Shown here: in pieces, positions 7,157 to 53,074 of the stretch
Layout: each line of letters opens with the position of its first letter
How positions within the stretch are numbered: position 1 is the stretch's first letter
Assembly (NCBI RefSeq): GCF_002788215.1
Contig: NZ_CP024845.1
Coordinates: forward strand, 1,798,001-1,862,000
Reading direction: 5' to 3'
Source of the DNA: Halohasta litchfieldiae
GTDB lineage: Archaea > Halobacteriota > Halobacteria > Halobacteriales > Haloferacaceae
DNA: 64,000 nt
Position numbers and translations under genes: made by a program
The notes under the pieces: generated by a model
The model's input: only the letters and a program-made list of their open reading frames with translations
What the model was told of the DNA's origin: nothing
Database searches by the model: none

Positions 7157-8104
7157 ATGACCGGATACGACACGACAGATTCGATTGAATCGGCCGCCCA
7201 CCGGGCGAACCAGCTTCTCGCGGACGGTGGCACTCGGCCACCGGTCGTGGTGAAAATCGGCGGTGCGAAAGCCGTCGACCCCGAAGGCGCAGTGAGCGAC
7301 ATCGCCTCGCTCGTCGCGGATGGACGTGATGTAGTCGTCGTCCACGGCGGGTCGACCGCCGTCGACGAGACGCTCGAACGCATGGACATCGAGCCGACCT
7401 ATGTCGAAACACCCGGCGGTGTCACTGGTCGCTTTACTGACGAGGAGACTATCGAAGTCTTCGAGATGGTGATGGCCGGCAAACTCAACACCGAACTGAC
7501 AACGCTGTTTCGGAACGCTGGCGTCGACGCACTCGGCCTCTCGGGTGTCGACGGTGGCCTGCTGACTGGCCCCCGGAAATCGGCGGTTCGCGTGCTTGAA
7601 GACGGCAAAAAGAAGATCAAGCGCGGCGACCACTCCGGCAAGATCACCGACGTTAACGACGACCTACTGGCCGATTTGTTGGCCGATAGCTATACGCCAG
7701 TCGTGAGCGTCCCGATGCTTGGCGAGAACAAGGATGGGTCGGTGACCCCGGTCAACGCGGATGCCGACCGCTCGGCGGCAGCGATTGCGGGCGCACTCGG
7801 CGGAGAGCTTATTATGTTGACTGACGTGACCGGAATTTACGCAGACCCCGAGGACCCGGAGACGCTGATCGAATCGGCCTCAACAGCCGAGGAGTTGGAT
7901 GCAGTCAAAACGGCCGCAGAAGGATTTATGACAAAGAAAGTGATGGCAGCGACCGAGGCACTGGAGGGCGGCGCACCAGCAGTGTACGTCGCGGATGCGA
8001 ACAGCGACAACCCAGTAACCGATGCGCTCGGTGGCACCGGAACGACGATCCACCGGAGTGTGCTGGATGCTGACGAAGACGGGCCAGCGGAGGTCGACCA
8101 ATGA
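7157..8104 (+). CDS. argB: Carrier-bound acetylglutamate/aminoadipate-type kinase (ArgB/LysZ)
   Basis: This amino-acid kinase phosphorylates the distal carboxyl of the carrier-bound glutamate using ATP. In 315 residues it shows VVKIGGAKAVD near residue 30, VVVHGGSTAVDETL near 60, LTDVTGIYADP near 220 and the KKVMAATEAL segment before the end. The order argC-argB-argD with four-base or shorter spacing is the usual order of this cluster. The stop overlaps the argD ATG (ATGA). An N-terminal extension of about 20 residues precedes the kinase fold, as often seen in haloarchaea. Confidence 0.95.
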   Translation: MTGYDTTDSIESAAHRANQLLADGGTRPPVVVKIGGAKAVDPEGAVSDIASLVADGRDVVVVHGGSTAVDETLERMDIEPTYVETPGGVTGRFTDEETIEVFEMVMAGKLNTELTTLFRNAGVDALGLSGVDGGLLTGPRKSAVRVLEDGKKKIKRGDHSGKITDVNDDLLADLLADSYTPVVSVPMLGENKDGSVTPVNADADRSAAAIAGALGGELIMLTDVTGIYADPEDPETLIESASTAEELDAVKTAAEGFMTKKVMAATEALEGGAPAVYVADANSDNPVTDALGGTGTTIHRSVLDADEDGPAEVDQ

Positions 8105-9237
8105 GCGGCTTCGTCTTCTCGGAGAAGCCAATCGATATCGACCACGGCGAGGGCCCCTTCCTCTACAGTGAAAATGGAACCGAGTACCTCGATTTCGGTG
8201 CCAGCTACGCGGTTGCACCGCTGGGTCACAGCCACCCTGACGTGACCGCAGCCATCCAACAGCAGGCCGAGACGCTGACCTACGTCCAAGCGTCGTACCC
8301 AGTCGACGTCCGGACCGAACTCTACGAACGACTTGGAGACCTCGCGCCCGGCGATCTCTCGAAAGTCTGGCTCTGCAATTCGGGCACTGAGGCCAACGAA
8401 GCCGCGATGAAGTTCGCCCGGAGTGCGACCGGGAACTCCAAAATCGTCGCCACCAAGCGCGCCTTCCACGGTCGCACCATGGGCGCGCTGGCGATGACAT
8501 GGAAAAAGAAGTACAAGGCCGCCTTCGAGCCACTCGCTGGCGACATCGAGTTCGTGTCCTACGGCGACGAGGAGGAACTCGCAGACGTTGTCGACGACGA
8601 GACGGCGGCGGTCTTTTTGGAACCAGTCCAAGGCGAGGGCGGAATTCATCCCGCGACGGTCGACTACCTCGAATCGGCCCGCGAGGTGACCGAAGATGTA
8701 GGGGCAGCACTCGTGTTTGACGAGATTCAGACCGGTGTCGGCCGGACTGGAACGCTGTGGGCCTGCGAACAGGCTGGCGTGGTTCCAGATATACTAACGA
8801 GCGCGAAAGGCATTGCAAATGGGATGCCGCTTGGCGCGACGCTGTGTGCCGACTGGATCGCCGAAGACTGTGGGAATCACGGCTCGACATTCTCTGGTGG
8901 GCCGGTCGTCGCCGCCGCAGCGAACGCAACCCTCGAAACGCTGATGGACGAAGATGTGCCCGGTCACGCTGCAGAGATGGGCGAGTACATGATGGCCGAA
9001 ATCGAGGCGGCTGCCGGAGAACACGACCTCCCGGTTCGGGAGGTTCGCGGCAACGGGCTGATGATCGGTGTCGAGGTCAAACGCGGGGCCAATCGAGTCC
9101 TGCGTGATCTCGCAATCAACCATCAGGTACTCGCGCTTCCGGCAGGCCGGACCGTCGTCCGCTTCCTGCCGCCACTGACGATTGAAAAGGACCACGTCGA
9201 CAGCGTCGTCGACGCACTGACGGAGGCACTCTCGTAA
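8101..9237 (+). CDS. argD: Carrier-bound ornithine/lysine aminotransferase (ArgD/LysJ)
   Basis: This is a pyridoxal-phosphate class III aminotransferase that converts the carrier-bound semialdehyde to carrier-bound ornithine with glutamate as donor. In 378 residues it has the cofactor-binding NSGTEANEAAMKFAR (about residues 97-111), FHGRTMGALAMT (about 122-133), the DEIQTGVGRTG acceptor motif (about 207-217) and the PLP lysine in SAKGIANGMPLGA (about 233-245). It overlaps argB by four bases and ends three bases before the next start. Its length is normal. Confidence 0.95.
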   Translation: MSGFVFSEKPIDIDHGEGPFLYSENGTEYLDFGASYAVAPLGHSHPDVTAAIQQQAETLTYVQASYPVDVRTELYERLGDLAPGDLSKVWLCNSGTEANEAAMKFARSATGNSKIVATKRAFHGRTMGALAMTWKKKYKAAFEPLAGDIEFVSYGDEEELADVVDDETAAVFLEPVQGEGGIHPATVDYLESAREVTEDVGAALVFDEIQTGVGRTGTLWACEQAGVVPDILTSAKGIANGMPLGATLCADWIAEDCGNHGSTFSGGPVVAAAANATLETLMDEDVPGHAAEMGEYMMAEIEAAAGEHDLPVREVRGNGLMIGVEVKRGANRVLRDLAINHQVLALPAGRTVVRFLPPLTIEKDHVDSVVDALTEALS

Positions 9238-40943: not shown

Positions 40944-42071
40944 CTATATTTTCACCCACTCGCCTCGTTCGTCGGCGCGTTCGATCCCGTCGAGGACCGT
41001 CTGGACGTCGAGGGCGTCCTGGAACGACGGCGAGAAGTTCGACTGATCGGCGACCGCCGAGAGGAACTCGTCGTTTTCGTGGACGAAACTGTGTTCCCAG
41101 CCGATGGTGTGGCCCGGCGGCCACCAGTGGTCGACGTAGGGGTCGGTTTCGTCGGTGACGAGGACGGTTTCGTACCCCCGGTTGTCACCGGTTAGGACTT
41201 CGAGTTCGTTGAGCCGTTCTAAGGAGAACTTCAGGCTGCCCGCCGAGCCGTGGATCTCGATGGTGTGGTCGTTCTTGTGGCCGGTGGCGAACCGCGAAGC
41301 CTCGAAGCTGCCGACCGCGCCGGTTTCGAACTCGGCTTGAGCGGTGTAGGCGTCGTCGACGGTCACTGGTCGGTACTCCTCGATAGCTCCCGCGTCGTCG
41401 TACACTGGGCGTTCGTCGACAAACGTTTCGAGGTGCCCTGAGACGCGTTCGATTCCCCCTACCTGGTCGCCGACGAGGAAGCGCGCGAGGTCGACGGTGT
41501 GGGCTCCGAGATCGCCGAGCGCGCCGGAGCCGGCGAGATCGGCATCCATCCGCCAGGCCCACTCGGCCTCGGGGTCGACGAGCCAGTCTTGGAGGTACCG
41601 TCCCCGGACATGGCGGATCTCGCCGAGCTCGCCCGACTCGATCAGCCGCTTGGCGTACTGGATCGCGGGCAAAAACCGGTAGTTGAACGCACAGCCTGCC
41701 GGCACGTCGGCATCGGCCGCGGCGGCGGCCATCGCTTCGGCGGCCTCCAGCGTCGGTGCAAGTGGTTTCTCACAGAGCACCGCGGTGCCAGCTTCGAGGG
41801 CCGCAATCGAGGGCTCGGCGTGGAGGTGGTTCGGGCCGAGATTGTAGAACACGTCGACTTCCTCAATCACGTCTTCCCAGTCGGTCGCCGTGTGGGCGAA
41901 GCCGAACTGATCGGCGGCCTCGGCGAGGGCATCCTCGTTGCGACCAATGAGCGTGTGGCGTTCGATCTCGGGAGCCTCGGGGAAAAACATCGGCAGGCGA
42001 GCAAGCGCGTTCGAGTGGGCTCTGCCCATAAACCGGTAGCCGAGCATCCCGATTTTCAGTGGTTCGGACAT
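40944..42071 (-). CDS. Gfo/Idh/MocA family dehydrogenase 1
   Basis: A 375-residue NAD(P)-dependent sugar oxidoreductase. N-terminus KIGMLGYRFMGRAHSNAL is the nucleotide-binding fold, CEKPLAPTLEAAEAM (about residues 94-108) holds the EKP motif, and WRMDADLAGSGALGDLGAHTVDL (about 167-189) is the usual catalytic region with GDLGAH. The gene follows the TIM-barrel gene by three bases (same operon) in the sugar locus. The substrate is probably a sugar or inositol derivative, perhaps a disaccharide or its 3-keto form; not provable here. Confidence 0.88.
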   Translation of the reverse strand: MSEPLKIGMLGYRFMGRAHSNALARLPMFFPEAPEIERHTLIGRNEDALAEAADQFGFAHTATDWEDVIEEVDVFYNLGPNHLHAEPSIAALEAGTAVLCEKPLAPTLEAAEAMAAAAADADVPAGCAFNYRFLPAIQYAKRLIESGELGEIRHVRGRYLQDWLVDPEAEWAWRMDADLAGSGALGDLGAHTVDLARFLVGDQVGGIERVSGHLETFVDERPVYDDAGAIEEYRPVTVDDAYTAQAEFETGAVGSFEASRFATGHKNDHTIEIHGSAGSLKFSLERLNELEVLTGDNRGYETVLVTDETDPYVDHWWPPGHTIGWEHSFVHENDEFLSAVADQSNFSPSFQDALDVQTVLDGIERADERGEWVKI

Positions 42072-42074
42072 GGA

Positions 42075-43043
42075 TTACTCCGCCCAGTAGGCATCACCGG
42101 GTGTGGTTTCGAACATGGCCCGCGAGAGGACGTCGACGGCCTTTTCGAGGCCCTCTTTCGAGGTGGTTAGCGAGTCCTCGTGTTCGATAGAGAGTGCGCC
42201 CTCGTAGCCGACCATCCGGAGCGTCGAGACGACGTCCTTCCAGTGACCCTCGCCGTGCCCGTAGCCGATCGAGCGGAACAGCCACGAGCGATTGGCCTCG
42301 TCGGTGTAGTCGGTGGTATCGAGGACGCCCTTCTCGCGGGCCTGTGGCTCGTAGATCTTGGTGTCTTTGGCGTGGAAATGGTGGATCGCATCCTCGTCGC
42401 CAAGGAGCCGGATCGCGTCAGTGACACTGATTCCCTGCCAGTAGAGATGGGAGGGATCGAAGTTGGCACCGATACGCCCGTTTGTCAGCTCGCGGAGTTT
42501 GAGCATCCCGTGAGGTTCGTAGACCAACATATTGGGGTGCATCTCGATAGCGATGTCGACGCCCTGCTCGTCGGCGAACTCGGCGAGTTCGGTCCAGTAG
42601 TTTTCGGCAACGGTCCACTGGTAGTCGTGAGCATCAGCGTGTTCGACCGGCCACGGGGCTGTAACCCAATTTGGGACCTCGTCGTTCGGCCCGCCCGCCG
42701 GGAGGCCCGAAAAGCAGGTGACCGTATTCACGTCGAGCTGGGCGGCCAGCTCGATGGCTTCCCGAAGTTCGGTATCGGCCTCCGCAGCGCGCTCCTCGTC
42801 GGGATGCAGCGGGTTGTTGTGGGTCGCCAACGCGCTAATCGAGAGGTCGTGTTCGTCGAGCAGGTCGAGCAGTTCGGCCTGTGCCTCGGCGTTGTCGAGG
42901 GTGGCCGTCCGGTCGACGTGGTCGTCGCCGGGATAGCCGCCGACGCCGAGTTCGACGCAGTCGACGCCGATCTCGGCGAGATACTCGAAGGTCTCTTCAC
43001 GGGACTGATTACCAAAGGGGACTGTTAGTACACCAAGCTCCAT
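42075..43043 (-). CDS. TIM-barrel sugar isomerase/epimerase
   Basis: A 322-residue protein of the xylose-isomerase-like TIM-barrel family: MELGVLTVPFGNQSREETFEYLAEIGVDCVELG at the start, EMHPNMLVYEPHGMLKLREL (metal-binding E and H), NFDPSHLYWQG, HHFHAKDTKIYEP and the late SIEHEDSLTTSKEGLEKAV. Members isomerise or epimerise keto-sugars or act as 2-keto-myo-inositol dehydratase. It is first in an operon with a Gfo/Idh dehydrogenase. A half-operator TACAACA sits at 43056-43062. Confidence 0.85.
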   Translation of the reverse strand: MELGVLTVPFGNQSREETFEYLAEIGVDCVELGVGGYPGDDHVDRTATLDNAEAQAELLDLLDEHDLSISALATHNNPLHPDEERAAEADTELREAIELAAQLDVNTVTCFSGLPAGGPNDEVPNWVTAPWPVEHADAHDYQWTVAENYWTELAEFADEQGVDIAIEMHPNMLVYEPHGMLKLRELTNGRIGANFDPSHLYWQGISVTDAIRLLGDEDAIHHFHAKDTKIYEPQAREKGVLDTTDYTDEANRSWLFRSIGYGHGEGHWKDVVSTLRMVGYEGALSIEHEDSLTTSKEGLEKAVDVLSRAMFETTPGDAYWAE

Positions 43044-43178
43044 ACACAAATCAACTACAACACCCCGAATAAATGTTTATGAAAGACTTATAGGATGTAT
43101 GAAATATGTGTGTGCTGTGTATCCGTCAGCAAGGAGCCCGGTGGTCGAATAGCGTCAGTACCTCAGCAGTGGGTCTCC

Positions 43179-44273
43179 TTATTTAGGTGAGAGGGCTGGG
43201 ACGGAGTCGGTGTTCAGCGAGACGGCCTCGCCCTGTTCGGACGACCGGTAGATGGCGTCGATGACACGCTGGACGGCGAGTCCCTCGTCGACCGTGTTGC
43301 GCTCGGGTGGGGTTCCCGCCGCGACGTGGTCGAGGAAGTAGCCTACTTCGGCTTTGTGGGTGTCGCTGTTTTGGGTCTGGATCTCGGCGTCAGTCAGATG
43401 GTCGCGTCCGGCCTTACTGCCCTCGTGAATCGTGAGTTCGTGGCTCGCGCGGTCGAACGTGGCTCCGGCTTCGGTACCCCGAAGTACGAACTCGTCGTTG
43501 GTCGGCCGGTTGACCGCCCAGGCGACATCCAGCGAGATCGTCTGGCCTGCCTCGGTCCGAATAAACGCGCTGACCGAGTCGTCGACGTCGAACCCCTCGG
43601 GGCCGATGTCTTCGCCCCACATCTCGACGTAGGCGTAATCCTCGCGGGTCCCGAACTGCGAGCGCGTCGTCCCCGAGACCTCGCTGATCGTTGGGAAATC
43701 GAGGAAGTGGAGCGCGAGATCGATGGCGTGGACGCCGATATCGATCAGCGAGCCGCCACCGGCGACCTCCTTCGAGGTGAACCACGAACCGCGGCCAGGG
43801 ATGCCGCGTCGACGGACGTAGTTGGCCTCGATGTGCGAGAAGTCGCCGAACCGACCCTCGTTTTGGTACTCTTTGACTACCTCAACTGGGGCCGAAAATC
43901 GGTTGTTGAAGCCGACCATGCAGAATCCCTCGGCGGCGTGGGCCGCCTCGACGATTCGCTCGGCGCTTTCGAGGGTGTGGGCGAGCGGCTTTTCCAACAG
44001 CACGTCGCAGCCGGCTTCGAGCGCGGCGACTGCGTACTGCTCATGGAACCGGTTCGGCGTGGTGATGAGCACTGCGTCAGCGGTCTTCAGCAGCTCGGCG
44101 TCGTCTTCGTACGTCGATACATCATACTTTTCGCGGAAGTTCTTGCGGGCCTCGCCGTTGATGTCGACGCCGCCGACAAGCTCCGCTTCTTGATCTTCAA
44201 GTCGGTCCGCGTGGTGGTGTCCGATCCCACCGAGACCGACGATTCCTACCTGTACTGGTGTGTTTGTCGTCAT
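43179..44273 (-). CDS. Gfo/Idh/MocA family dehydrogenase 2
   Basis: A 364-residue NAD(P)-dependent oxidoreductase: VQVGIVGLGGIGHHHADRL, LEKPLAHTLESAERI (EKP motif, about residues 92-106), GGGSLIDIGVHAIDLALH (about 176-193) with the catalytic-type histidine. The frame is open to 44345; the ATG at 44273 (MTTNTPVQVG) is chosen. An operator-like TACTACGGGTGTTGTTA lies 12-27 bases before that start. It lies between the ABC ATPase and the isomerase operon, with gaps large enough for its own promoter. Confidence 0.88.
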   Translation of the reverse strand: MTTNTPVQVGIVGLGGIGHHHADRLEDQEAELVGGVDINGEARKNFREKYDVSTYEDDAELLKTADAVLITTPNRFHEQYAVAALEAGCDVLLEKPLAHTLESAERIVEAAHAAEGFCMVGFNNRFSAPVEVVKEYQNEGRFGDFSHIEANYVRRRGIPGRGSWFTSKEVAGGGSLIDIGVHAIDLALHFLDFPTISEVSGTTRSQFGTREDYAYVEMWGEDIGPEGFDVDDSVSAFIRTEAGQTISLDVAWAVNRPTNDEFVLRGTEAGATFDRASHELTIHEGSKAGRDHLTDAEIQTQNSDTHKAEVGYFLDHVAAGTPPERNTVDEGLAVQRVIDAIYRSSEQGEAVSLNTDSVPALSPK

Positions 44274-44283
44274 TAGAATGTAT

Positions 44284-44301
44284 TTACTACGGGTGTTGTT
44301 A
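44284..44301. promoter_or_regulatory. Operator copy upstream of dehydrogenase 2
   Basis: TTACTACGGGTGTTGTTA matches the full palindrome GTACAACAGGTGTTGTAC at 13 of 18 positions. It lies close to the start of the dehydrogenase gene, so it overlaps its core promoter or 5' leader. See the two other copies at 49103 and 50634. Confidence 0.5.
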
Positions 44302-44362
44302 AGATTCACGTTACCGTGATTGTCAGTGACGGTACCCAAAGTCACCTGTCGAGAGGCTCCGA

Positions 44363-45541
44363 TCAGTCGTCGGTGCTGGGCTCGGCCTCCGATTCCGAGG
44401 CTACCGCTGGATCGGCAATTCCGTGGGAGATCGCCGTTCCCGACGCCGTATCGAAGAGGTGGACCTTACTTCGGTCCAAGACGACCTCCAGCTGTTCGTC
44501 CTCGCCGAGTGTGCTGTCGGGGTCCGTACTCATCAACAGCTGATCGTTGGCCTGTGCGGTATCCATCGAGGTTTCGGCAGCCTCGCTGAGGAGGAGGTAA
44601 ATGAATATCTCGTCGCCCATCGGTTCGAGCACATCGGTCGTGACAGGCATCGCTACTGTCGGATCCGCGAGCGTGTGAGCCTTGCTCGATTCGTAGACAT
44701 CCTCCGGTCGGATACCGAGTGTGATCGACGACCCTACCGTGACGCCGACAGTCGACGGGTCGAAGTCGACAGTGACGTATTCGGACTCGAAGCCGTTGTC
44801 CGTAATCGTCCCTTCGATGAAGTTCATCGACGGCGAGCCAATGAAGCCAGCAACGAACAGGTTTGCGGGTTCGTTGTAACAGACCAACGGTGGGTCGATC
44901 TGCTGGAGTTTGCCGGCGTTGATGACCGCAATCCGGTCGGACATCGTCATCGCCTCGGCCTGATCGTGGGTGACGTAGATGATCGTCGTATCCAGCTCCT
45001 TGTGGAGTCGCTGGAGTTCGGTTCGCATGTGGACACGTAGCTTGGCATCGAGGTTCGCCAGTGGCTCGTCCATCAGGAAGACGTCCGGGTTACGGACAAT
45101 CGCCCGTGCGATGGCGACCCGCTGTCGCTGTCCGCCCGACATTTCCTCGGGCATCCGATCTTGCATGTTTTCGAGCTGGACGATGTCGGCAGCGCGGTCG
45201 ACCCGGCGCTGAATCTCCTCGTCGTCGTATTTGCGGAGCCGGAGGCCGAAACTGATGTTGTCGAAGACGTCCATGTGAGGGAACAGCGCGATGTTCTGAA
45301 ACACCATCGAGATCCCACGGTCCTTCGGCGGGAGGTTCGTGACGTCACGGCCGCTGATGCTGATCGTCCCCTCGGTTGGTTTCGTCAGTCCAGCGATGGT
45401 CTCCATCGTGGTCGACTTGCCACACCCCGAGGGACCGACAAAGGTGACGAACTCGCCGTCCTTGATGTCGAGGTTCATGTCGTCGACTGCCGTTACATCA
45501 TCGTACCGCTTTGTCATGTGTTCGAGTTTAACGTTTCCCAT
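44363..45541 (-). CDS. Sugar ABC transporter ATP-binding protein
   Basis: The 392-residue ATPase of a MalK/UgpC-type importer. It shows Walker A GPSGCGKST (about residues 36-44), Q-loop, signature MSGGQRQRVAIARAI (about 134-148), Walker B VFLMDEPLANLDA, the H-loop VTHDQAEAMTMSDRIAV and a C-terminal TOBE domain of about 130 residues. The start at 45541 (MGNVKLEHMTK) is chosen from a longer frame. It lies four bases after the second permease, in the sugar-import operon. Confidence 0.93.
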   Translation of the reverse strand: MGNVKLEHMTKRYDDVTAVDDMNLDIKDGEFVTFVGPSGCGKSTTMETIAGLTKPTEGTISISGRDVTNLPPKDRGISMVFQNIALFPHMDVFDNISFGLRLRKYDDEEIQRRVDRAADIVQLENMQDRMPEEMSGGQRQRVAIARAIVRNPDVFLMDEPLANLDAKLRVHMRTELQRLHKELDTTIIYVTHDQAEAMTMSDRIAVINAGKLQQIDPPLVCYNEPANLFVAGFIGSPSMNFIEGTITDNGFESEYVTVDFDPSTVGVTVGSSITLGIRPEDVYESSKAHTLADPTVAMPVTTDVLEPMGDEIFIYLLLSEAAETSMDTAQANDQLLMSTDPDSTLGEDEQLEVVLDRSKVHLFDTASGTAISHGIADPAVASESEAEPSTDD

Positions 45542-45545
45542 TGGA

Positions 45546-46559
45546 TTACTCCTTGAGTGCTCCCGCGGTGAGCCCGCTGACGATTTTTTCCTGTGCGACG
45601 ACAACCAGTATGGCAACTGGTAGCACGCCGACGATACTCGCTGCGGCCATCACGTTGAACAGCACCTCGTATTGGCCCTGATACTGCAGAATCCCGTCGA
45701 CGATGGGGGCCCAGTTGTCGGCGCTGCCGTCGGTCATGAGGAACGAGAAGAAGAACTCGTTGTAGACCGCGATGAACGTCAGCACGCCCGCCGTTGCGAC
45801 GCCGGGGGCCGACAGTGGCATAATCACACGGAACAGCGCGCCGAGCCGTGTGGTGCCTTCGATCCGGGCGGCGTCTTCGAGCCCATCGGGGATCTGACTG
45901 TAGAACGTCGTGAGGATGAAGATCGACAGCGGCATGAAGATTGCACTGAACGGGACGACCATCGCGTACGGCGTGTTGTAGAGGCTGCCGTCGGCCAAGA
46001 TTGGCCGCAAGATGTCTATGTTCGTGTTGAACAGATCGTTCAGCGGGATGAAGAACGCCGCTGGCGGGAAGAACGACACGATCAACACGAGCAGCATGAG
46101 CGGTCCCTTACCGGGGAACCGCAGTCGACCGAAGACGTAGCCCGCGAGGCTGGCGACGATGATGACGACAATCGTCGTCACCGTCGCGATCACGAAGCTG
46201 TTGAACATGTAGCGGTGGAACGGAATGATCGTAAACACCTCAAGGAAGACGCCGGGATTGGTCCCCATCGTGAGATCACCCTGCGCAAGCAGCGAGGGGT
46301 CGAAGCCAGAGGGGACAAGCCCGACGTCCTGGAGATTACGACGTGGCGTCAGTGCCACCATGAACAGCCAGTAGAACGGGAACAGCGTTGTGACGAGGAA
46401 GAAGATCGTCGCTGTGTAGAACAACGCTTTGTACGTCCGCTTTGGGTTTTTGATCGTTTTCGCGGCCCAAGCTTCGAACAGCCCGCGGTCGATCTCCGGT
46501 TCCTCGCTGTCGTCGTCGTTGGTGTAGACCTTTTGTCCGTCTGTTTGTTCGAGAGACAT
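45546..46559 (-). CDS. Sugar ABC transporter permease (MalG type)
   Basis: A 337-residue inner-membrane permease with six membrane segments and the coupling motif EAARIEGTTRLGALFRVIMPLSAPGVATA (about residues 225-253), the EAA loop that contacts the ATPase. It pairs with the MalF-type permease just upstream, overlapping by one base. Acts with the binding protein and ATPase to import a carbohydrate. Confidence 0.93.
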   Translation of the reverse strand: MSLEQTDGQKVYTNDDDSEEPEIDRGLFEAWAAKTIKNPKRTYKALFYTATIFFLVTTLFPFYWLFMVALTPRRNLQDVGLVPSGFDPSLLAQGDLTMGTNPGVFLEVFTIIPFHRYMFNSFVIATVTTIVVIIVASLAGYVFGRLRFPGKGPLMLLVLIVSFFPPAAFFIPLNDLFNTNIDILRPILADGSLYNTPYAMVVPFSAIFMPLSIFILTTFYSQIPDGLEDAARIEGTTRLGALFRVIMPLSAPGVATAGVLTFIAVYNEFFFSFLMTDGSADNWAPIVDGILQYQGQYEVLFNVMAAASIVGVLPVAILVVVAQEKIVSGLTAGALKE

Positions 46560-47587
46560 TACATGAACCCTCCTTCTGAGTCACGGAATTTCGCGAGGTA
46601 GACGGCGATGAAGACGCCGATTAGCGCTGCGGTGAGGAAGGCAACTGCAGCGGCCGTCCCGTAGATCCGGGTGCCGCCGAACAGGCCATCGATCACCAGA
46701 CAGGTCATCGATGGGACGGTCGAACAGCTCGCCGTCGACTCGATGATGCCGTAGACGCGCATGGCGTCCATCGTCCGGAACAGCATGGCGACGATCAGTG
46801 CTGGCATCACGATTGGCAGGGTAATCAGCTTGAATCGCTGCCACGGGGTCGCCCCCGAGACTTTGGCCACGTCGTAGAGGCTGCGGTCGACGCTCTGGAG
46901 CCCTGCGAGGATCAACAGCGCCATGAACGCCGAGGTTTTCCAGATGTCGGCGACGAGCACGATGATGAACGAATCACGGCTCGATGCCAGTGGGTTGTCG
47001 CCGAACAGGCCGATCGACTGCATGATCTCGCTGCCGAAGCCGACGGTCGGCTGGAACATGAGGAAGAACAGCATCCCCTGAATGACGATTGGAATCGCCC
47101 ACGGGAGGATGATGGCGACACGGACCCAGCGGCGGCCCTCGAACTCTTGGTTGAGGACCATCGCCTGACCGAAGCCGATGATTGTTTCGAACAGGACGCT
47201 CAGTATTGCAAACGCGAGCGTGACGAACAGTGCTTGCCTGAAAAACGGGGTCCCGAGTTCGAGAAACGGGAAGTCGGATGTGAGTGCAACGTCGATTACC
47301 TGTCGGCTGAGTCGCGTATCCCCAGTGAAGACGTCGATGTAGTTTTCCAGCCCGACGAACCCGCCGAGTGGCTCTGCACCACGGGTTTCGTCGGCCAGCA
47401 ACGACATCCGTAACGTCGACAAGAGGGGATAGAACGCGACCAATGCCAACAGGAGGAAGCCGGGAATCAACAGCAGGTAGGCGTAGGCGGCCTCACTGAG
47501 GTTTTCCATCCAGGTAAGGAAACCACTGAAAACGCCACCGCTGTCGGCCCCGGTCTCGGCCGGTGAGTTGGTGTGGTCGGTTGCCAT
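46559..47587 (-). CDS. Sugar ABC transporter permease (MalF type)
   Basis: A 342-residue permease with about six membrane segments (AYAYLLLIPGFLLLALVAFYPLL first) and an EAA loop (YDVAKVSGATPWQRFKLITLPIVMPALIVA, about residues 238-267). It follows the binding-protein gene by 30 bases and overlaps the next permease by one base. Its extra N-terminal acidic region of 20 residues is halophile-like. Confidence 0.93.
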   Translation of the reverse strand: MATDHTNSPAETGADSGGVFSGFLTWMENLSEAAYAYLLLIPGFLLLALVAFYPLLSTLRMSLLADETRGAEPLGGFVGLENYIDVFTGDTRLSRQVIDVALTSDFPFLELGTPFFRQALFVTLAFAILSVLFETIIGFGQAMVLNQEFEGRRWVRVAIILPWAIPIVIQGMLFFLMFQPTVGFGSEIMQSIGLFGDNPLASSRDSFIIVLVADIWKTSAFMALLILAGLQSVDRSLYDVAKVSGATPWQRFKLITLPIVMPALIVAMLFRTMDAMRVYGIIESTASCSTVPSMTCLVIDGLFGGTRIYGTAAAVAFLTAALIGVFIAVYLAKFRDSEGGFM

Positions 47588-47617
47588 GCTAATAAGGAAT
47601 TGTGAGTTGGTGGGTGG

Positions 47618-49057
47618 TTATCTGGTGTCGCTCTCTTCGAGTTCGGTTGCGAGGGTGCTCATTGCCTCCTCGGGCGTCTTCGTCTGGGTGTAGGCGTCGT
47701 GGACCTCCTGGTAGACCAGTGCCGACTGGTTCGGCCACAGGTCGGTCACGGGGCGTGGCACGGCCGTATCGGCCACGTACTGCAGCGTGTCGACGTAGCG
47801 GCCGATTGGGCCGACATCGTCTTCGGTAACGCCGTCGAGAACGCCCGGAATCGGCGGGAGGTTGCCGGCGGTCTCGAAGACCGTCAGCATGACCTCGTCG
47901 GAGGTCCACGCTTCGAGGACCTGTACTGCGTCTTCGGTCTTCTGTGAGTTGGGGTTCATCGTCAGATGCCAGCCACCGAGGGCTGCGCGGCTGCCACCGA
48001 GGCCGTCGTACTTCGATTCGCTTTCGGGGACACCGTACGGAAGCGGCATCACGTCGAAGTCGGTTCCGAAGGCTTCGACGTTGTTGGTGATCGCGTATGG
48101 CCAGTTGCGGTGGAACGCCGCGTTGCCGGAGGTAAACGGTCCGCGAGCGTCCTCTTCGGTCCACTGGACGATCGAGCTCGGAGCGATCTGTTCGTACCCC
48201 TCTGCGGCCTCCGGATCATCGCTGCCGTACATGAACGCACGCATCATGCGAATCGTCTCGATGACTGGTTCTTCCTCGACAGTTACGGGTCGCTCGCCAA
48301 CCGGGCCGAAGAGGTTGTCGACGCCACCGAAGTACGCACCGCCGAAACTCGACATCGTCTCGTTGAACGTACAACAGGCCAGTCCCTCGTAGGCGGCTGC
48401 CTGCGTCGTAAAGCCGTACTCAACGCCGCTTTGATCCCGAACATCAGCGGCAACCTGCGAGAACTCCTGCCAAGACATTGGCGTGGTCGCCCAGTTGTTA
48501 CCATCCGGGTTGTAGCCCGCGGCTTCGGCGAGGTCTTTCCGGTAGTGCATAACCGGGTAATCCGGGAAGATCGGCACGCCGTAGAGGTCTCCGGACATAG
48601 GGCTTTCGGCGGTCGCAACCGATGCCGAAAGGTAGTCGTTGCGGATGCGGTCGAGCACGTCGCTCGACAGCTGCTCTTCGAGATTTACGAGCTGCTCGCG
48701 CACGATGAACGGAATCGTCCACCCGCTGTCCATCATGAACAGGTCCGGCGACGACCGGCCAGCGTTGAGCGCCGAGCTGTAGGTCTGTCGACGGCTGTCG
48801 GTCTGGAAGTCTTCCTGAACGATCTCGACTTCGATGTCGGTGTCGAGACCAGAGTTTCGAAGTGCGCTGATGATCTCGTCGGACGCGTCGGCCATCACCG
48901 AGTCAGCCGAGACGACGACGGCGTCGCTGCCGCCGTTGCCGCCGGTGCAGCCAGCCAAACTAGTCGAGATTCCTGCCGCACTTGCTGCCTGTACGAATCG
49001 TCGACGGGAGACACCAGCGTTTGCCAGACCGTTTTCGTTTGAGTATTCCTTACCCAT
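47618..49057 (-). CDS. Sugar ABC transporter substrate-binding lipoprotein
   Basis: A 479-residue extracellular binding protein. It has a Tat signal (VSRRRFVQAASAAG) and a lipobox ending LAGC (C37), so it is exported folded and lipid-anchored. The mature part has the two-lobed fold of family 1 carbohydrate-binding proteins (DLFMMDSGWTIPF, GLACCTFNETMSSFGGAYFG). It is the first gene of the importer operon. On the minus strand a TATA-like TTATATATAATA is near 49080-49091, and the operator at 49103 is just upstream of that. The sugar is inferred as sucrose or a similar disaccharide from the downstream GH68 gene. Confidence 0.92.
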   Translation of the reverse strand: MGKEYSNENGLANAGVSRRRFVQAASAAGISTSLAGCTGGNGGSDAVVVSADSVMADASDEIISALRNSGLDTDIEVEIVQEDFQTDSRRQTYSSALNAGRSSPDLFMMDSGWTIPFIVREQLVNLEEQLSSDVLDRIRNDYLSASVATAESPMSGDLYGVPIFPDYPVMHYRKDLAEAAGYNPDGNNWATTPMSWQEFSQVAADVRDQSGVEYGFTTQAAAYEGLACCTFNETMSSFGGAYFGGVDNLFGPVGERPVTVEEEPVIETIRMMRAFMYGSDDPEAAEGYEQIAPSSIVQWTEEDARGPFTSGNAAFHRNWPYAITNNVEAFGTDFDVMPLPYGVPESESKYDGLGGSRAALGGWHLTMNPNSQKTEDAVQVLEAWTSDEVMLTVFETAGNLPPIPGVLDGVTEDDVGPIGRYVDTLQYVADTAVPRPVTDLWPNQSALVYQEVHDAYTQTKTPEEAMSTLATELEESDTR

Positions 49058-49102
49058 AGGAAAGAATATGATGGTTATTATTATATATAACTATGGGATC
49101 GG

Positions 49103-49120
49103 GTACAACAGGTGTAGTTA
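49103..49120. promoter_or_regulatory. Operator copy upstream of the importer operon
   Basis: GTACAACAGGTGTAGTTA matches the full palindrome GTACAACAGGTGTTGTAC at 15 of 18 positions. It lies about a dozen bases upstream of the TATA box of the binding-protein gene, an activator-type position. Confidence 0.6.
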
Positions 49121-49293
49121 ACAAATAGTGACCACATAGTTCACGATAAAAACCGCCGACAGCGAAGGGGCACGACGCTGTCGACAGCCGTCAAATCGGG
49201 CCGAACAACCCGTGATAAGTATTACTCAGCAGTAATGAACATTCGATTCAGGCAGCTCAGAACGAAGGCCACGGGGCGTGACCTCGAGGCGGT

Positions 49294-50379
49294 TCACGGT
49301 TGCTTTTCGGCCCGTTCAACCGTGATCTGTATTGCTTCGATCTCTTCGATCATCGCGCCCCAGCCGCCGACCGTGTACGTGCCATCATCCGTTTCGAGGG
49401 TGAATGAGGCTTCCCCTGCGAGGTGGGACAACGATGTTAGATACGTTTCGTCTTGGGTTTGCCCAGCGTAGGTGACATCAGTAACGGTTCCACGAAGCGA
49501 AATTTCGTGGCCGGTCACAGTCTCGATACCGTTGACAGAGACATCGATCTGCATGCCGTCTTCAAACAACGGGACGATTGTTCGCAGACAGTGGCGAATA
49601 TCGACATACGAGATGGGAAGCTCCTCGTTGCGTGCCGAATAGATACTCTCGTAGCCCTCCCAGAGGTTCGTCAAAAAGTACCAGTAAAACACGTACGTAT
49701 GTGTCATATCGTTGACTATCACGCCGTACTCGTTGGTCGACCGTCCGTGTGGCGAAAAGCAGGTCCACGACCGGTCGATCAATGCAATAAACGGCGACGG
49801 TGCCGACCGGGTTCGGACTTCGGTCGCGGTCCGCGAGAAGGAGTCGGTCGATGGAAGCTCCATCTCTCGGTCGAGCGAGGGGACGAGACACACCTTCACG
49901 TCGGCACCACGGTCGAGCGCACACTCGAGGGCATCCTCCAGTTCGTAATACTGGTCGATTGTGAGACCCACGTTGACCTGTGTCTCGGCGTTGCGAATCA
50001 ACTGCTCGGCCTGTGCCAACACCGTATCGAGTCGCTTGACAATGCTTACTCGGTGTTCGTCGATATCCGGCCGGTCCCACCGGTCTTCGATCTCTTCGGC
50101 CGCCGTCTCGAAGCGGTTGGCTCGTTGCCGGAGATCAGCAAGCACGTCGGCTGGGTCGTGGGCCCGAGCGTGTAAGCTGTCCTGTTGATAGGTCTCGATA
50201 TACTCCGCCTCTTCGAGCCCACGGAGTACATCGTAAATTCTCGCATCAGGGACGGAACTGGCCTTGGCGATTTGAGTCGCTGATGCCGATCCGAGACCGA
50301 GCAACGTCACGAAGGCGTCGGCCTGATACGGTGACAACCCGGCATCCTCCAGCGTCTCGATAAGCTCCTCACCGTTCAT
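49294..50379 (-). CDS. TrmB-like sugar transcriptional regulator
   Basis: A 361-residue regulator of the TrmB family: winged helix at the N-terminus (GLSPYQADAFVTLLGLGSASATQIAKASSVPDARIYDVLRGLEEAEYIET), a coiled linker (LADLRQRANRFETAAEEIED), and a C-terminal sugar-binding part with a PLD-like region (about residues 110-355). TrmB proteins in haloarchaea bind sugar signals and control sugar transport and glycolysis genes. It is transcribed towards the importer operon, in the same direction, and divergently from the kinase/GH68 genes. It is the natural candidate to bind the palindromic operator. Confidence 0.88.
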   Translation of the reverse strand: MNGEELIETLEDAGLSPYQADAFVTLLGLGSASATQIAKASSVPDARIYDVLRGLEEAEYIETYQQDSLHARAHDPADVLADLRQRANRFETAAEEIEDRWDRPDIDEHRVSIVKRLDTVLAQAEQLIRNAETQVNVGLTIDQYYELEDALECALDRGADVKVCLVPSLDREMELPSTDSFSRTATEVRTRSAPSPFIALIDRSWTCFSPHGRSTNEYGVIVNDMTHTYVFYWYFLTNLWEGYESIYSARNEELPISYVDIRHCLRTIVPLFEDGMQIDVSVNGIETVTGHEISLRGTVTDVTYAGQTQDETYLTSLSHLAGEASFTLETDDGTYTVGGWGAMIEEIEAIQITVERAEKQP

Positions 50380-50487
50380 ACCGCACCGTTAGGGCTCGCA
50401 TCCGTCGAATAATCAATCATCTATGTGATCGTAATACAGCCATTACAAAAATGTTGCCTTCAGCGTACTGTCCGCGTTTTAATTCCA

Positions 50488-50549
50488 GATGGTCGACAGT
50501 ACGTGATTTCGGATGGTCGACAGTACGTGATTCCGGATGGTCGACAGTC
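50488..50549. repeat. 24-bp tandem repeat in the regulatory gap
   Basis: Two and a half copies of GATGGTCGACAGTACGTGAT-TTCG/TCCG: unit 1 at 50488-50511, unit 2 at 50512-50535 (one base different), and a partial third from 50536. It lies between the divergent TrmB-like and kinase genes and may be a multi-site operator or a replication-slippage repeat. Confidence 0.75.
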
Positions 50550-50633
50550 TAGGTCCGGATTCGACCGTGACTCTGACTAGTCACCGTACCGCGGATACCG
50601 GGCAGATCTCGGCCCCGATCTCTCGATTCTAAG

Positions 50634-50651
50634 GTACAACAGGTGTTGTAC
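50634..50651. promoter_or_regulatory. Full palindromic operator of the kinase/GH68 operon
   Basis: GTACAACA-GG-TGTTGTAC is a perfect 8-bp inverted repeat with a two-base centre. It ends about 10 bases before a TATA-like ATTTATTAT (50662-50670). A variant sits in the same geometry upstream of the importer operon (49103), and another before dehydrogenase 2 (44284). Confidence 0.65.
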
Positions 50652-50686
50652 TATCTTCAAAATTTATTATCTACCACCATATATCC

Positions 50687-50806
50687 ATGAGTGTAACGGA
50701 ACCCAAAATGACAGAGACCAACCCACTACACGACCGGAAACCAAAACCAGGCGAGCGTCTTCGACCGCGTGAACAGCATCCCACGGACAGATGGAACGAT
50801 GTCTGA
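50687..50806 (+). CDS. 39-residue ORF ahead of the carbohydrate kinase
   Basis: An ATG at 50687 begins a frame (MSVTEPKMTETNPLHDRKPK and so on, ending PTDRWNDV) that stops at 50804-50806 just inside the kinase start (ATGTCTGA). The ATG lies about 21 bases after the TATA-like element, so it may be the first codon of a leaderless mRNA. It is charged, rich in Pro/Arg/Lys, with no known domain. It may be a leader peptide of the sucrose operon or a chance frame. Confidence 0.4.
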   Translation: MSVTEPKMTETNPLHDRKPKPGERLRPREQHPTDRWNDV

Positions 50807-51752
50807 GCCGTCGGTCTTAGTCGCTGGCGAAGCGCTCATCGATTTTATTCCCGATACTCCAGGATCGCTGGCCGGGGTTGAAACGTTCCACCGGCGGGCT
50901 GGTGGTGCCCCCGCCAATGTCGCCGTCGGGCTCGCCCGGCTCAACGAAACGCCGTGGCTGTGTACGACGCTGTCGACCGATCCCTTTGGCGAGTTTCTGG
51001 CCGACCGGCTCGACGCCGAAGGGCTGCCCGAGCGGTTCGTCACGCGCGTCAAAAACGCGACGGCACTGGCATTCGTCAGCCACGGCGAGACGGGCGACCG
51101 GGAGTTTAGCTTCCATCGCGAGCGGACTGCCGACACCGTCCTGCAGACCGACGTGGTCGACACCGCGACGCTGGCGGCGGTCGACTGGCTGGTTGTCGGT
51201 GGCGTGACGCTGTCGGCCGAGCCGTCCCGTTCGGCGACCTTCGAGCTTGTCGAGCGAGCCCAAGAGGCGGGCTGTCGGATCGTCTTCGATCCCAACACCC
51301 GGCCGGAGCTGTGGGCCGAATCCGACGACATGACGCTGACGCTCGAACGAATGCTGCGGCGGACCGACGTGCTCAAAGCGACCCGCGAGGACTTCGAGCC
51401 GACCGCAATCGACGCCAGCAGCGACGGCTTCGCCGACCGACTGCTTGAAAAGGGTCCCGAGATCGTCCTGCTCACAGAAGGGACGGCGGGCGCACGGGCA
51501 GTCGCCGACGGCGACTCGGCGTGGGGGCAAGGCGAGTGGCATCATTCGGGCTACGAGATCGACGCCGTCGACACCACCGGCGCTGGCGATGCGTTTCTTG
51601 CGGGTGCGGTCGCGGCCCTCACAGAGGAGGCCGACCCGACCGAGACGCTCGCGTTCGCCAACGCCGTCGCCGCCCTTGCGACGACCGAGGGCGGGGCGAT
51701 GGCCGCGCTGCCGGATCGGTCGGCCGTCGACCAGTTGATGGAGGATCGATGA
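50799..51752 (+). CDS. PfkB-family carbohydrate kinase (fructokinase-like)
   Basis: A 317-residue ribokinase-type sugar kinase: VLVAGEALIDFIPDTPGS start, HRRAGGAPANVAVGLARL (about residues 30-47), LSTDPFGEFLADRL, and the ATP/catalytic signature VDTTGAGDAFLAGAVAAL (about 251-268) with Asp as base. Such kinases phosphorylate fructose or related sugars. The stop overlaps the GH68 start (ATGA). With GH68 it can take sucrose to glucose plus fructose phosphate. The ATG at 50799 (MSEPSVL) is chosen over 50769. Confidence 0.93.
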   Translation: MSEPSVLVAGEALIDFIPDTPGSLAGVETFHRRAGGAPANVAVGLARLNETPWLCTTLSTDPFGEFLADRLDAEGLPERFVTRVKNATALAFVSHGETGDREFSFHRERTADTVLQTDVVDTATLAAVDWLVVGGVTLSAEPSRSATFELVERAQEAGCRIVFDPNTRPELWAESDDMTLTLERMLRRTDVLKATREDFEPTAIDASSDGFADRLLEKGPEIVLLTEGTAGARAVADGDSAWGQGEWHHSGYEIDAVDTTGAGDAFLAGAVAALTEEADPTETLAFANAVAALATTEGGAMAALPDRSAVDQLMEDR

Positions 51753-53074
51753 GAGAAACGAGCGCCGACCGGGAGTGGACTCGGTGGAGCCGCGAAGCGG
51801 CCGACCGGATCGAGCGAACCGACGGGACGGTCGCACCTCCGGCCGGACTACCGGAGAGCGATCCGGCACCCGATCTCCACGTCTGGGATACATGGCCGCT
51901 CCGCACTCGGAGCGGCGAGATCGCCACCGTCGACGGCTGGCAGGTGCTGATCTCGCTGACGGCCCCGGCCGACGTGACGCCCGGCGAGCGCCACGACATC
52001 GCCGAACACCGGTATTTCGTCTCCCGCGACGGTCGGGAGTGGACCGACCGCGGCCCCGTCTTCGGCGACGACGCCCTCGGCACCCGGCAGTGGGCCGGGT
52101 CGGCGCTGTACGACGACGGCGAGCTGTATTTCTTTTATACGGCCGCGGGCGACGCCGACAGCGAGGACCTGACCTACACCCAGCGGCTCGCCGTGGGTTA
52201 CGGCGGAACCCTTGAGACGGTCGACGGCGAGCTCACCATCGAAGGGCCATGGAGCCACGAGGTCCTCCTTGAGGCGGACGACGAGTGGTACGAGACACAG
52301 GCCCAGTCCGGCGAGATGACCTACACGTTCCGCGATCCGTGGTTCTTCGAGGACCCCGAGACCGGCCGGACACACCTCCTTTTCGAGTCGAACACGCCAC
52401 CGGCGGCCGACGACTGCGGTGGTGACGCCGACCAGCAGGCGTTTAACGGGTGTGTCGGCCTCGCGGTCTCGCCGTCGGGCGATCCCCTCGACTGGGAGTT
52501 CCGCCCGCCGATCTTCGACAGCGTCTGTGTGAACCAGGAGATCGAACGCCCCCACGTCGTGGTCCATGAGGGTCGCTACTACCTATTCGTCTCCAGCCAC
52601 GTCGACACCTTCGCGCCGGGGCTCTCGGGGTACGACGCCCTCTACGGGTTCGTTGCCGACTCGCTGGGCGGCGAGTATCGGCCGCTAAACGAGTCAGGAC
52701 TGGTCGTGACGAACCCGGCGAGCGCACCGTTTCAGGCCTACTCGTGGCTGGCGGTCGACCACGGCGAGGAACTGCTCGTGAGTGGGTTTTGCAACTATCC
52801 CGAGTTCGACGGGGTCGCGATCGGCGAGCTCGCGGCGCTGTCGGGCGAGGAGCAACGTCAGCGTTTTGCGGGCACGTTGACCCCGACGCTCCGAGTGGCC
52901 GTCGACGGCGAGCAGACGCGGATTCAGGGAACGCTCGGCCATTGGGCGTTCCCGAGCGAGGGCGAGACGTTGCCGCCGGTCGACGACGGGTGGAGTCTTC
53001 CGGCAAAAGAACTCAACCCCGAGCCGGGGCTGACCCAGACGGCATCGCGGCGGGACGAGGGCCCCTTCTGGTAG
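51749..53074 (+). CDS. GH68 sucrose-cleaving enzyme (levansucrase/invertase type), intracellular
   Basis: A 441-residue five-bladed beta-propeller glycoside hydrolase family 68 protein. The catalytic residues are visible: nucleophile D47 in HVWDTWPL, stabiliser D196 in TFRDPWFF, and acid/base E266 in NQEIERPHVV. It has no signal peptide, unlike most bacterial levansucrases, so it should act in the cytoplasm on imported sucrose. The gene overlaps the kinase by four bases. It probably hydrolyses sucrose rather than building levan, but transfer activity cannot be excluded. Confidence 0.9.
   Translation: MRETSADREWTRWSREAADRIERTDGTVAPPAGLPESDPAPDLHVWDTWPLRTRSGEIATVDGWQVLISLTAPADVTPGERHDIAEHRYFVSRDGREWTDRGPVFGDDALGTRQWAGSALYDDGELYFFYTAAGDADSEDLTYTQRLAVGYGGTLETVDGELTIEGPWSHEVLLEADDEWYETQAQSGEMTYTFRDPWFFEDPETGRTHLLFESNTPPAADDCGGDADQQAFNGCVGLAVSPSGDPLDWEFRPPIFDSVCVNQEIERPHVVVHEGRYYLFVSSHVDTFAPGLSGYDALYGFVADSLGGEYRPLNESGLVVTNPASAPFQAYSWLAVDHGEELLVSGFCNYPEFDGVAIGELAALSGEEQRQRFAGTLTPTLRVAVDGEQTRIQGTLGHWAFPSEGETLPPVDDGWSLPAKELNPEPGLTQTASRRDEGPFW

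Follow-up and report, generated by a model that had tools for sequence, protein, structure and literature searches.

Why should a single sugar locus encode both a hydrolytic enzyme and a set of oxidative enzymes, and do the two sets serve the same substrate? The question arises at positions 40944 to 53074 of a 64,000-nucleotide stretch of the genome of the haloarchaeon Halohasta litchfieldiae (contig NZ_CP024845.1, positions 1,798,001 to 1,862,000; hereafter, the window), a genome of 3,332,022 bases in a single contig. An earlier model reading made without database searches (the sequence-only reading) had named an importer, two Gfo/Idh/MocA dehydrogenases, a TIM-barrel enzyme, a PfkB kinase, and a GH68 enzyme lacking a signal peptide, and each of these was found in place. 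That reading argued by comparison with bacteria; since the host is an archaeon of the class Halobacteria, its remarks on bacteria are not directly applicable. Our preferred interpretation, to which we give an even chance of being right, is a TrmB-controlled locus for the uptake of an alpha-glucoside (sucrose and/or trehalose being the likeliest) and its breakdown by two cytosolic routes. The features of the locus, in window coordinates, are as follows.

40944-42071, minus strand: dh1, Gfo/Idh/MocA dehydrogenase, levoglucosan-dehydrogenase-like (Pfam; NCBIfam NF052479; PDB matches 4h3v and 6a3f)
42075-43043, minus strand: TIM, xylose-isomerase-like barrel, 2-hydroxy-3-keto-glucal hydratase-like (PF01261; sequence and fold matches to 8ro4 and 2zds)
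43179-44273, minus strand: dh2, Gfo/Idh/MocA dehydrogenase, DgpA-like, glycoside 3-dehydrogenase type (Pfam; PDB 7xr9)
44285-44300: third operator, degenerate, 1 mismatch, 12-27 nt before the dh2 ATG
44363-45541, minus strand: ATPase of an ATP-binding cassette (ABC) importer, CUT1 family, MalK/UgpC type, motif GIRPED (family searches)
45546-46559, minus strand: ABC importer permease, MalG type (family searches)
46559-47587, minus strand: ABC importer permease, UgpA/MalF type (family searches)
47618-49057, minus strand: sugar-binding protein (SBP), N terminus lipoprotein-like with a twin arginine (family search; PDB 1eu8 and 6dtq)
49104-49119: operator before the importer (SBP gene), exact, TACAACAGGTGTAGT, with a TATA-like box about 14 bp downstream (by eye)
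49294-50379, minus strand: TrmB-family sugar-responsive regulator, between the two gene groups (PF11495, PF01978)
50635-50650: operator before PfkB-GH68, exact, perfect palindrome, TACAACAGGTGTTGT, with a TATA-like box about 16 bp downstream (by eye)
50799-51752, plus strand: PfkB-family sugar kinase, fructokinase-like (PF00294; PDB 5ey7)
51749-53074, plus strand: GH68 sucrose-acting enzyme without a signal peptide (PF02435; PDB 7bj4)

On the minus strand, the order of transcription is TrmB, SBP, the two permeases, the ATPase, dh2, TIM, and dh1, while PfkB and then GH68 lie on the plus strand. In the scheme that we propose, the importer would take the alpha-glucoside in intact. By one route, GH68 would split sucrose and PfkB would phosphorylate the fructose. 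By the other, one dehydrogenase (dh2, or dh1) would use NAD+ to oxidize the glucose unit at C3, TIM would eliminate the aglycone and/or hydrate the 2-hydroxy-3-keto-glucal so formed, and reduction of 3-keto-glucose by the other dehydrogenase would yield glucose and recycle the cofactor, the net result being a formal hydrolysis. We infer the substrate, the direction of each dehydrogenase, the performance of both middle steps by TIM, and the binding of the operator by TrmB.

The two gene groups are linked by a palindromic operator of the pattern TACAACA-N2-TGTTGTA (exact pattern, TACAACAGGTGTWGT), copies of which stand at all three promoters of the locus, those of the importer, PfkB-GH68, and dh2. 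In the whole 3.33-Mb genome, the exact operator occurs only at 49104 and 50635 of the window, and three of the four places found with up to one mismatch lie inside the locus. The window holds seven matches with up to two mismatches where 0.40 would be expected, a count reached by none of 100 shuffles. Genome-wide totals were no higher than those of a reversed control (7 versus 7 rows at up to one mismatch, 18 versus 24 at up to two), so that only exact matches and the clustering at gene starts count as unusual; a regulon reaching across the genome beyond the locus was rejected, given the equality of the one-mismatch total with the control. The PfkB operator and its spacing are kept in Halohasta salina, as is the position of the dh2 operator, there at three mismatches. 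The dh2 operator is the weaker evidence because it overlaps a possible longer dh2 N terminus. The fourth one-mismatch place, at genome position 1118399 (about 6400 in region L120), stands before a gene for a small, secreted-looking protein; among the open reading frames listed there, no sugar gene adjoins it, and the gene on its other side is presumably ThiL-like.

We then looked at the operator in other haloarchaea, where counts come from related genomes and hence do not represent independent events; counts by gene start leave out gene matches below 100 bits and ATPase matches below 60 percent identity. At up to two mismatches, 80 other loci containing TIM held 41 operator sites, of which 15 stood at SBP starts, 6 at TIM, 6 at TrmB, 4 at GH13, and 10 elsewhere. 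Twenty-five permuted half-sites gave a mean of 0.68 sites in the same loci (maximum, 2), with 0.2 at SBP, TIM, TrmB, or GH13 starts versus the 31 observed. Expressed per gene, the operator precedes 15/31 SBP, 6/80 TIM, 6/28 TrmB, and 4/16 GH13 genes, and none of the 71 dh1 genes in these loci. Likewise, 72 GH68 regions held 20 sites, 14 of them at a distance of 58 to 71 bp before GH68; the corresponding control means were 0.48 and 0.04. Among the 14 genomes with a GH68 operator, a TIM operator is also present in two at up to two mismatches (L209 and L211) and in two more at three mismatches (L203 and L214). Coregulation of the locus is well supported, since the operator recurs before importer, TIM, GH13, or GH68 genes far above permuted controls. 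The sequence-only reading had taken a shared operator as support for a joint role, and to this extent it was borne out, the operator being both real and conserved ahead of such genes elsewhere among haloarchaea.

What reaction TIM may catalyze is suggested by its nearest relatives. A model predicted from an alignment of 53 sequences, 52 of them from the 80 loci and one from the window (mean column identity, 83 percent; mean pLDDT [predicted local distance difference test], 86.5), matched 2zds, of unknown function, at a Z of 34.3 and 8ro4 (AtHYD, a 2-hydroxy-3-keto-glucal hydratase) at a Z of 32.4, with the next match at 27.4 and sugar epimerases at about 25; these come from VIA-align lists of fold relatives, and families unlisted there may still be related. 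Superposition on 8ro4 covered 294 residues with a root mean square deviation of 2.3. TIM also matched 8ro4 and 2zds by sequence, and a profile aligned with AtHYD the FRSxGxGH stretch and four single residues: E169, D198, E289, and one histidine within HHFHAKD. We take the four residues E169, D198, the HHFHAKD histidine, and E289 to be metal-type ligands. In sequence, predicted fold, and shared residues, TIM thus resembles hydratases of the AtHYD type.

The dehydrogenases appear, from their closest relatives, to fit the same chemistry. dh1 matched PDB chains 4h3v and 6a3f at 344 and 280 bits (404 and 339 with a profile) and has the motifs EKP, FNYR, and YLQDW and a D/H motif in common with them; we take 6a3f, whose entry reads putative dehydrogenase, to be levoglucosan dehydrogenase (LGDH). 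dh2 matched DgpA (7xr9) at 145 bits, and a profile of 19 dh2 orthologues scored two DgpA chains at 197.9 and 174.6 bits, with the next Gfo/Idh/MocA match at 115.8. By sequence, dh1 is nearest to LGDH and dh2 to DgpA, a glycoside 3-dehydrogenase type. Second copies of both genes exist in the genome, at 86 percent for dh1 (L193, 7140-8276) and 80 percent for dh2 (L194, about 7300-8300); genes that we assume to be SDR-like and GH15-like lie near the former.

Three described systems bear on how such a set might work. In the bacterial Lgd pathway, LgdA oxidizes C3, LgdB1 eliminates, LgdB2 hydrates and can partly replace LgdB1, and LgdC reduces (available portion of PMC7676230); the pathway includes an ABC importer, and LgdB2 is capable of both elimination and hydration (available portions of PMC7676230 and PMC10066097). 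The window locus is like this pathway, as known from Bacillus smithii and relatives, in having two Gfo/Idh/MocA enzymes (dh1 being LgdA-like), a xylose-isomerase-like TIM enzyme, and an ABC sugar importer, with dh2, as the second Gfo/Idh/MocA enzyme (the counterpart of LgdC), and the importer in the same gene run. It differs in having one TIM gene rather than separate LgdB1 and LgdB2, in the score of dh1 well below the LGDH cutoff, in its archaeal host, and in that hydrolases and a kinase have the same operator. Agrobacterium deglycosylates O-glycosides with AtOGE, AtHYD, and a Gfo oxidoreductase, which work jointly in a like manner on a 3-keto plant glucoside (available portion of PMC10628242); AtHYD is among the two closest TIM folds, but no separate eliminase was seen in the window locus. 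One hydratase-type TIM with two dehydrogenases could plausibly form a minimal version of a 3-keto pathway, because LgdB2 can partly replace LgdB1 and AtOGE, AtHYD, and the Gfo oxidoreductase act together likewise. DgpA, the closest relative of dh2, belongs to C-glycoside deglycosylation, where its partners are DgpB and DgpC; no eliminase of the DgpB/DgpC type was seen in the window locus. By description only, the locus may also be likened to the ThuEFGK-ThuAB trehalose/sucrose locus of Agrobacterium, which likewise combines a disaccharide importer with a Gfo/Idh/MocA dehydrogenase. The word archaea is absent from the survey of Kaur et al. Another pathway, through a 3-keto-disaccharide hydrolase of the DUF1080 type, was rejected, as the genome has no PF06439 protein at an E value of 0.001.

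The uptake and hydrolytic genes are consistent with a disaccharide entering the cell whole. The CUT1 importer is complete (SBP, two permeases, one ATPase), and the ATPase motif GIRPED fits the definition G[IV]RPE[DH] given in the accessible part of PMC11519228. The same part of that paper describes a mannitol/sorbitol CUT1 locus of Haloarcula hispanica, like ours in combining a CUT1 importer, dehydrogenases, and a sugar kinase in a haloarchaeon; its dehydrogenases are of MDR type with other substrates, and that part mentions no hydrolase or TIM enzyme. SBP has as its closest PDB match the trehalose/maltose-binding protein 1eu8 (118.5 bits), followed by MalE3 (6dtq; 108.1 bits). TrmB has both its sugar-binding domain (PF11495, 180.6 bits) and its DNA-binding domain (PF01978, 50.8 bits), and PfkB matched the fructokinase 5ey7 at 136 bits. 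The ATG of GH68 overlaps the PfkB stop by four bases (ATGA). GH68 scored 233 bits on PF02435 (cutoff, 27) and 539.5 bits against its closest solved chain, 7bj4, and alignment to the latter shows the motifs WDTW, RDP, and ERPH, presumably the catalytic motifs of the family. Between TrmB and PfkB, at 50482-50548, lies a 24-bp tandem repeat of 2.8 copies (unit, ATTCCGGATGGTCGACAGTACGTG). Just past the PfkB promoter, a 39-codon open frame (50687-50806, plus strand) ends with a stop that overlaps the PfkB ATG; H. salina (L187) has a shorter, 19-codon frame with the same ending. The 39-codon frame may encode a leader peptide or be due to chance.

No Tat or Sec signal was recognized by eye at the GH68 N terminus. 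The sequence-only reading regarded intracellular GH68 as unusual among bacteria, which does not hold here, because 65 of the 72 haloarchaeal GH68 proteins checked lack a recognizable signal, making this the usual form in haloarchaea; the other seven (L123, L134, L188-L192) have a twin-arginine signal. Reading by eye may overlook atypical signals, as illustrated by the disagreement reported in the available portion of PMC8066391 on one haloarchaeal GH68 that makes inulin, for which SignalP was negative and PRED-TAT positive. The seven proteins with a signal form a separate group, about 41 to 48 percent identical to the window GH68 and sometimes in tandem (L191). GH68 occurs in 70/194 Halobacteria genomes, and 12 of the 72 regions have, next to it, an importer whose SBP is recognizable (L145, L150, L153, L154, L157, L162, L166, L177, L178, L179, L187, and L191).

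We compared gene neighborhoods across haloarchaea, dropping matches above an E value of 1e-10 and overlapping lower-scoring matches. TIM is present in 147/194 haloarchaeal genomes and 48/65 genera; all TIM loci found are haloarchaeal, the closest being that of H. salina at 88 percent identity. TIM and dh1 form the core, with full-length dh1 (>85 percent coverage, >40 percent identity, no stop) in 71/80 TIM loci, while dh2 is present in 25/80. In seven loci (L039, L042, L051, L061, L071, L075, and L076), TIM and an importer have PfkB and TrmB as neighbors. Support for our preferred reading comes from Haloarcula-family clusters that unite TIM, dh1, a GH13 enzyme, TrmB, and an importer, in several loci in the order gluconate-dehydratase-like gene, TIM, dh1, M24-like gene, GH13, TrmB, importer. 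The name of the first gene is tentative because its score lies under curated cutoffs; if named correctly, it might point to glucose as the product. Other neighbors include the M24-peptidase-like gene between dh1 and GH13 (L009, 12202-13326), a PspA/IM30 gene just upstream of TIM-dh1 in 12 loci, mainly of Halorubrum (L043, 8940-9932, and similar), and an AIM24-family gene adjoining TIM or dh1 in nine loci, mainly of Haloarcula (L012, 11066-11779).

Several observations weigh against two routes for one disaccharide. GH68 was found in 0/80 other TIM loci and TIM, dh1, or dh2 in 0/72 other GH68 regions, so that the window is the only examined place where GH68 and the oxidative genes touch, and many TIM-dh1 pairs lack any importer. 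At up to two mismatches, the operator precedes dh2 in 0/25 orthologous loci and PfkB in 0/11. Ten of the 14 Haloarcula-family genomes with a GH68 operator have no TIM-dh1 operator at up to three mismatches, so that the operator regulon is real and includes the TIM-dh1 pair only sometimes. The locus lacks a second TIM gene for the elimination step, dh1 scored 333 bits on the NCBIfam LGDH model NF052479, far below the 650-bit cutoff, and no tested activity was found in the literature consulted for enzymes of this clade. The earlier suggestion of an oxidative route beside hydrolysis therefore stands in part: joint regulation is supported by the operator, but the gene groups are separate in all other genomes examined, including H. 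salina, which keeps them in two loci, with GH68-PfkB-TrmB beside a different importer of its own. This arrangement in H. salina, and the absence of GH68 next to the oxidative set elsewhere, would also be expected if two independent modules had been joined by rearrangement, the importer and dh2-TIM-dh1 serving another glycoside or anhydrosugar (levoglucosan-like, or a plant glycoside), TrmB-PfkB-GH68 serving sucrose, and the operator reflecting related TrmBs. Relatives of dh1 and dh2 do act on levoglucosan and C-glycosides. However, an identical exact operator serves both groups and has no other exact place in the genome, a hydrolase (GH13) recurs with TIM-dh1, TrmB, and importer in Haloarcula-family genomes, and SBP resembles trehalose/maltose binders; we therefore consider independent modules unlikely, though a serious competitor.

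Alternatively, the dehydrogenases and TIM might act after hydrolysis, on free hexoses, through C3 oxidation, epimerization or isomerization by TIM, and reduction, or through salvage of adventitious 3-keto sugars. The fold of TIM is also that of ketose 3-epimerases and of the 3-keto-glucoside 4-epimerase YcjR (the matches at a Z of about 25), TIM-dh1 pairs commonly occur with neither importer nor hydrolase, and the gluconate-dehydratase-like gene adjoins TIM in some genomes; yet the AtHYD and 2zds matches stand 5 to 7 Z units above the next rows and no tested feature points to an epimerized product, which leaves this explanation with a low probability. Similarly improbable, in our view, is that GH68 mainly transfers fructose, as an inulosucrase, and yields cytosolic fructo-oligosaccharides instead of hydrolyzing sucrose. 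Its closest solved relative, 7bj4, is listed as a levansucrase, and the window enzyme is of the same family as, and highly similar to, the haloarchaeal inulosucrases (7bj4 and HmcIsc), one haloarchaeal GH68 having been shown to make inulin (available portion of PMC8066391); it differs in belonging to an uptake locus and being paired there with a kinase, a fructokinase-like gene whose stop and the GH68 start codon overlap, and no signal peptide is seen. The sequence-only reading had left the oxidative route between 3-keto-sugar breakdown and inositol catabolism. The former is the better fit, given the hydratase-like fold of TIM and the LGDH- and DgpA-like dehydrogenases. Catabolism of inositol or another cyclitol alongside sucrose use might be suggested by the Gfo/Idh/MocA and IolE/IolI-like folds and by the 197 bits of PfkB on the IolC model (cutoff, 300), but SBP resembles disaccharide binders, TIM scored 30.9 bits on the IolE model against a cutoff of 290, and the locus has no Iol genes. 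Since the best IolD score in the genome was 205.7 of 715 bits, whereas 14/14 control genomes were positive, we rejected it and see hardly any chance of its being correct.

Returning to the two-route proposal, a wider form of it would be an archaeal 3-keto-glucoside pathway in which TIM, found in most of the sampled genomes, acts with one or two dehydrogenases in elimination and hydration, beside cytosolic GH13 or GH68 under one TrmB operator, so that two chemistries would serve the same disaccharide. We offer this tentatively, as somewhat likelier to fail than to hold. In a limited collection of literature (titles and abstract openings), we found no haloarchaeal 3-keto pathway and, on Halohasta or Deep Lake, nothing on this locus. 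If the proposal is true, haloarchaea would use 3-keto glycoside breakdown, in the cited literature described only from bacteria, and would couple it through an operator to ordinary hydrolysis. Possible reasons for having two routes per sugar would be substrate range, redox balance, and access to sugars closed to hydrolases. It would also give a testable function to the TIM-dh1 pair carried by most sampled haloarchaea and would define a TrmB regulon.

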